Shown in pieces: positions 410 to 52,904 of a stretch of DNA of 64,000 nt (the stretch's first letter is position 1; the number at the start of each line of letters is the position of its first letter). This DNA is from Tubiluchus corallicola (Eukaryota > Priapulida > Priapulimorpha > Priapulimorphida > Tubiluchidae). The stretch covers positions 62,001 through 126,000 of the forward strand of contig JAQGDQ010000400.1 in NCBI GenBank assembly GCA_030141605.1. Reading direction: 5' to 3'. Under the pieces are notes generated by a model, which made no database searches, had not been told where the DNA came from, and was given only the letters and a program-made list of their open reading frames with translations. The position numbers and the translations under genes were made by a program.

Positions 410-581
410 CTTTCAGTCTTTTTTGCAACAATTCGTTCCATGCCATCCGAAGCCTGACAGCCTTGCCAATGATAGTGTGAGCTTGATCAGAATTTGTTAA
501 CGTCACTTTTAGCCATTCATCGAATACTAGCTGCAGAAGATCAGCACTGGTGTCCACTGCATGGCTAAATAACAGCAAAAT
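410..581 (-). CDS. DHX34: DHX34 exon 16 (3' boundary uncertain)
   Basis: Starts phase 0 after acceptor TTTTCAG|ATT. Encodes [20 protein letters not shown] and [19 protein letters not shown], matching LLLFSRSLDTNGD and SLRLRARWESAL of human DHX34. A weak donor AAAG|GTGCAA is at 410/409; otherwise the frame runs on to a stop at 351-353 with 20 unrelated-looking residues. No further exon is evident in 1-350, so the last exon(s) probably lie outside the window. Confidence 0.82.

Positions 582-52904: not shown

Follow-up and report, generated by a model that had tools for sequence, protein, structure and literature searches.

The stretch of DNA analysed here (the window, 64,000 nucleotides) in all likelihood carries a DHX34 helicase gene, of a probably protostome animal, that hosts three independent genes on the plus strand: a sarcoglycan gene, an LRR gene and a possible glycosyltransferase gene. 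The coding exons of the guests and, within the window, of the host were delimited; each guest is contained in one host intron and is oriented opposite to the host (Table 1). The arrangement is real and neat, yet it is ordinary gene nesting, comparable to that of human NF1.

Table 1. Positions in the window of the DHX34 exons, the guest-holding introns and the nested genes
Feature	Position	Strand	Description
DHX34 exon 1	52194..52904	-	start codon at 52904, ends after Walker motif; spliced frame and tblastn
DHX34 exon 2	51201..51340	-	spliced frame
DHX34 intron 2	45233..51200	-	5968 nt; contains glycosyltransferase-like ORF
DHX34 exon 3	45037..45232	-	DEVH box; spliced frame
DHX34 intron 3	40165..45036	-	4872 nt; contains LRR gene
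DHX34 exon 4	40051..40164	-	SAT motif; spliced frame
DHX34 exon 5	38608..38710	-	spliced frame
DHX34 exon 6	37516..37665	-	spliced frame
DHX34 exon 7	35524..35715	-	spliced frame
DHX34 exon 8	33279..33394	-	spliced frame
DHX34 exon 9	31520..31655	-	spliced frame
DHX34 exon 10	31296..31437	-	spliced frame
DHX34 exon 11	29796..29970	-	spliced frame
DHX34 exon 12	29242..29430	-	spliced frame
DHX34 exon 13	27363..27506	-	spliced frame
DHX34 exon 14	26182..26343	-	spliced frame
DHX34 exon 15	24630..24767	-	spliced frame
DHX34 intron 15	582..24629	-	24048 nt; contains sarcoglycan gene
DHX34 exon 16	410..581	-	GT donor at end, gene predicted to go on off the window; spliced frame and homologs
Sarcoglycan exon 1	1847..2023	+	cytoplasmic part and transmembrane helix
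Sarcoglycan exon 2	19559..20230	+	extracellular part, stop
LRR gene exon 1	41034..41703	+	signal-peptide-like start, first LRR module; LRR_8
LRR gene exon 2	42417..43136	+	first LRR C-cap, second LRR module
LRR gene exon 3	44615..44841	+	second C-cap, hydrophobic tail, stop; 195 nt from host exon 3
Nested single-exon ORF	48111..49199	+	362 aa and stop; possible GT-A glycosyltransferase

The host was located by tblastn with a human DHX34 sequence as the query, which gave 16 collinear pieces on the minus strand; the joins were set by reading the edges of the pieces. Joined, the 16 exons read through 993 codons in a single stop-free frame. Each of the 15 introns is GT-AG, and their phases are compatible. 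Besides the three introns in Table 1, introns 1 and 4 to 8 measure 853, 1340, 942, 1800, 2129 and 1623 nt, and introns 9 to 14 measure 82, 1325, 365, 1735, 1019 and 1414 nt. The start at 52904, the last exon edge at 410 and the count of 16 minus-strand exons agree with the first-pass annotation, which had also taken 410 as the end of the gene. This last point does not hold. Because exon 16 stops at a GT donor and the homologs reach 96 to 220 residues further (median 189 among the 120 listed homologs), DHX34 is predicted to run on past 410 and off the left edge of the window, and exon 16 should not be its last exon.

In a comparison with the protein set, 5672 of the 7970 scored candidates matched the joined host protein at E ≤ 1e-3. 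The helicase-named entries among the 120 listed homologs are called DHX34, DEAH box polypeptide 34 or plain RNA helicase, and the others are hypothetical or unnamed. Pfam placed Helicase_C, DEAD, HA2_C and OB_NTP_bind above their cut-offs, with HA2_N below (19.1 vs 21). The predicted DEAH helicase core, HA2 and OB fold, together with a closest similarity to DHX34, identify the host as DHX34. We take exon 3 to encode the DEAH box (read as DEVH). The best identity among the 120 listed homologs is 59%, in a set that includes many NCBI animals, so that either the lineage is isolated or its own records are absent from the set. In a quick, midpoint-rooted tree built with 54 of the 120 listed homologs, the window sat on a long branch (1.08) next to the arthropods (SH-aLRT 98). 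As long branches attract, the tree is taken to indicate a protostome at most; the source lineage is probably protostome, and its placement near arthropods is unreliable. The window contains no N and has a G+C content of about 35%.

The guest in intron 15 is predicted to be a beta/gamma/delta-type sarcoglycan. PF04790 matches it with an E-value of 1.7e-74 over profile positions 2-257 of 259, and a hydrophobic 19-mer (mean 3.06 at residue 33) marks a single N-terminal transmembrane helix. The subtype is presumably delta/gamma-like, by resemblance. The first-pass annotation had already placed a sarcoglycan here; its model is amended by adding the first exon, for two exons in total. The gene spans 18.4 kb of the 24-kb intron. 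A tandem array with a 114-nt unit lies inside the sarcoglycan intron (14393-14954).

For the double-module LRR gene in intron 3, the earlier model likewise holds once a third exon is added; the gene then runs from start codon to stop codon, and its three exons have compatible phases. LRR_8 scored 34.0 bits (cut-off 27) on exons 1 and 2, which encode 464 of the 538 aa, and the C-caps and signal peptide were read by eye. The product is predicted to be a secreted or membrane-attached two-module LRR protein. The codon-usage score preferred a wrong frame for this gene (0.15 vs 0.097); such scoring is too weak to judge genes here. A repeat of about 111 nt at 44848-44958, in the short gap that separates the LRR stop from host exon 3, is 92% identical to 62014-62124.

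The third guest, a single-exon ORF in intron 2, is the least certain. The label of glycosyltransferase given to it earlier found no family or sequence match: Pfam returned no family at E ≤ 10, PHROGs returned nothing, and the one model that NCBIfam gave, for an HNH nuclease, scored far under its cut-off. The PDB sequences held no match at E ≤ 10. AlphaFold2 without an alignment produced a low-confidence model, with a mean pLDDT of 38.0 for the whole ORF and 41.5 after the N-terminal segment. Of the 50 Foldseek rows listed for this model, 45 are glycosyltransferases; many rows duplicate a protein already listed (TarP, LH3), and none reached E ≤ 0.001. TarP, RmlT and LH3 were counted as glycosyltransferases. 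The rows of other kinds were five of the 50 and, in a second listing, included Card1, flavohemoglobin and dioxygenase reductase. The fold matches thus hint weakly at a glycosyltransferase, and to that extent the label keeps some favour. The N-terminus is moderately hydrophobic (best 19-mer 1.59) and is possibly a membrane anchor.

An origin of this ORF as a retrocopy or by horizontal acquisition, or its not being a gene at all, is unlikely, though less so than the other alternatives considered. The ORF has no intron, and homologs were found neither in the protein set (none at E ≤ 10 among 1289 candidates) nor in viral, bacterial or archaeal contigs. On the other hand, it has 362 open codons, where stop-to-stop ORFs in 20 single-base shuffles of the window reached 200 codons at most, no A-run of at least 8 occurs in the 600 nt past the stop, and the low-confidence model resembles mostly glycosyltransferases, as given above. 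Its codon-usage score (0.075) is the best of its six frames, yet was matched by one of 48 non-coding control windows. If the ORF is not a gene, only two nested genes count; a retrocopy or a horizontal origin would still fit a DHX34 gene with three independent guests. A 76-nt direct duplication (98% matches, 1.9 copies) at 47902-48048 stops some 60 nt short of the ORF's start codon, in the place where its promoter might be.

The guest coding spans (1847-20230, 41034-44841 and 48111-49199) each fall inside one intron and overlap none of the 16 host exons, and the three guest frames are plus where the host frame is minus. The positions and orientations of three unrelated genes in introns 15, 3 and 2 are therefore, at the coding level, as the first-pass annotation had described them. 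None of the other 12 introns in the window is as long as any of the three that hold guests, and these three account for 34888 of the 49515 intron bases (70%). When the guest spans are subtracted, 5664 nt of intron 15, 1064 nt of intron 3 and 4879 nt of intron 2 are left; the median of the other 12 introns is 1332.5 nt. The probability that all three guests are antisense is 0.125 at even odds, 0.25 at an opposite-strand share of 63% and 0.30 at two-thirds; by arithmetic, it is about 0.41 at 74.3% and about 0.47 at 77.8%. Since published opposite-strand shares are 63-78%, the all-antisense arrangement is a 25-47% event. Neither the position nor the orientation of the guests demands a special cause. 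A scan for additional guests took in another 20 ORFs, 55-127 aa long (12 in the host span and 8 on its right side), none of which had a Pfam match above cut-off. Within the host no Rfam family attained its gathering score, and a tRNA scan found none.

That three antisense guests in one host are unusual, as had been proposed, is not borne out by the portions of the literature used here, in which NF1, MOB2 and CENPP are comparable or larger cases (PMC4394429, PMC3933685). Human NF1 holds three coding genes (OMG, EVI2A, EVI2B) and the pseudogene AK4P1, all on the opposite strand (PMC4394429, in part). It resembles DHX34 in being one host with three intronic coding guests, all antisense; it differs in that its coding guests share one intron whereas those of DHX34 occupy three, and in the identity of host and guests. 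According to the same source, MOB2 has 13 nested genes and MTOR has three, of which one is an antisense RNA, one a coding gene and one a pseudogene; most nested genes in human have no functional relation to their hosts. CENPP has four different-strand guests in a table whose rows are given as read (PMC3933685). The excerpts used report 659 internal and 470 external nested genes in Drosophila (PMC13343718), an opposite-strand share of about 63% with 41% single-exon genes among human nested genes (PMC3192792), opposite-strand shares for simple pairs of 220/296 (74.3%) in human and 193/248 (77.8%) in mouse (PMC8467205), and 567 opposite nested pairs in C. elegans (PMC12274878). Multi-guest antisense hosts and the opposite-strand bias are already published, so the DHX34 nest opens no new question. 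It is a clean case of multiple nesting at the coding level, in a lineage without a close relative in the protein set (best listed, 59%), and could date the entry of genes into introns once relatives are sequenced.

Searches of an open-access library returned no report of nesting in DHX34 or of a nested sarcoglycan gene. 2mit of Drosophila is an LRR gene, with which the LRR references in the timeless2/2mit literature agree. As far as the parts of the sources used here go, 2mit lies opposite to its unrelated host timeless2, as the guests do in DHX34 (PMC3786989), the vertebrate alpha-catenin/LRRTM pairs are opposite-strand LRR guests in an unrelated host, and, of the 19 nested structures that frog or chicken has lost, 12 had LRR-superfamily guests (PMC3933685). 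The timeless2 and alpha-catenin hosts are unrelated to DHX34, and the likeness of their LRR guests is noted without a claim of orthology.

The nest probably arose by three guests being inserted, or growing, separately into long introns. Each would be transcribed from its own promoter, and its RNA would be spliced and polyadenylated within the host intron. Host transcription would pass through the guests, which would leave with the spliced-out intron. The opposite orientation would be a tolerated state, because an antisense gene gives the host no splice sites or poly-A signals on the host strand. Interaction would then be limited to polymerase collision or pairing of nascent RNAs, in cells that transcribe both. 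Antisense RNA pairing had been raised in the first-pass annotation; the mature coding RNAs cannot pair because the nested coding spans overlap no host exon. Pairing could involve nascent RNAs or untranslated ends, for example an extended LRR 3' UTR, and interference between nascent host and guest transcripts is possible.

A functional nesting, with transcription of the guests disturbing the host or acting as its switch, for example through collision or through an LRR 3' UTR that crosses exon 3 in antisense, appears decidedly improbable. The LRR stop codon at 44841 is separated from host exon 3 by 195 nt and, past a poly-A-like ATTAAA at 44844, the next plus-strand motifs (AATAAA at 45310 and 45341) lie beyond that exon; the ATTAAA, as the nearest such site, would nevertheless stop the LRR RNA short of exon 3. 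Precedents are found in the parts of two sources used here: interference between nested genes has been inferred in Drosophila (PMC8467205), and a nested gene of C. elegans induces a short form of its opposite-strand host (PMC12274878). The latter pair, polq-1/ceh-10, is like DHX34 in that the host encodes a nucleic-acid enzyme and has the guest on the opposite strand of an intron, but its nested gene was shown to induce the short host transcript, whereas a comparable effect in the DHX34 nest is hypothetical (PMC12274878, in part). There is only a slim chance of a regulated nest, in which transcription of the guests, and chiefly LRR read-through past 44844 into exon 3, would yield RNA antisense to the DEAH-box exon and the host would be silenced or shortened in the tissues of its guests; a helicase gene would then be turned off by its own guests. 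Only in the 195 nt from the LRR stop to the DEAH-box exon would a direct test of antisense interference be simple.

A split of the apparent host into two or more genes, or its creation by an assembly join, either of which would make the nested genes really intergenic, is most improbable: intron 15 is long (24 kb, vs 82-5968 nt for the others), but all junctions are GT-AG and phase-compatible, the window is free of N, the exon 2/3, 3/4 and 15/16 junctions that enclose the guests align without an inserted residue or gap in 120 of the 120 listed homologs, and introns 2 and 3 cut one helicase core (a motif in exon 2, DEVH in exon 3 and SAT in exon 4, as read in the sequence). Two separate helicase genes are contradicted at the coding level by this contiguity and by the split core, and the host stands as one gene, as first annotated.

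Several other features were observed in the window. At 53339-53457 on the plus strand, opposite to DHX34 and 435 nt upstream of its start codon, the 5S rRNA model of Rfam (RF00001) matches over its full length (98.8 bits, model positions 1-120). The match is followed by a repeat (53467-53860) that is 87% identical to 39523-39891 in host intron 4, a copy without an Rfam match at E ≤ 1. The 5S match could represent either a 5S gene or a SINE-like element with a 5S head. A promoter and terminator scan of 52800-53600 used a bacterial model and is uninformative for an animal gene. Two ORFs, at 34443-35123 (minus strand, host intron 7) and 27687-28022 (plus strand, host intron 12), gave no Pfam match above cut-off; they resemble ends of LINE reverse transcriptases. 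A GLMP/NCU-G1 gene at 57152-63455 on the plus strand is head-to-head with DHX34. Its exon at 60304-60678 matches PF15065 (E 8.7e-25), and other putative exons were seen by eye near 57152, 58125, 58875, 62224 and 63225. Further tandem arrays occur at 57297-57911 (51-nt unit), 32564-32861 (6-nt unit) and 46784-47009 (units of 8-104 nt).
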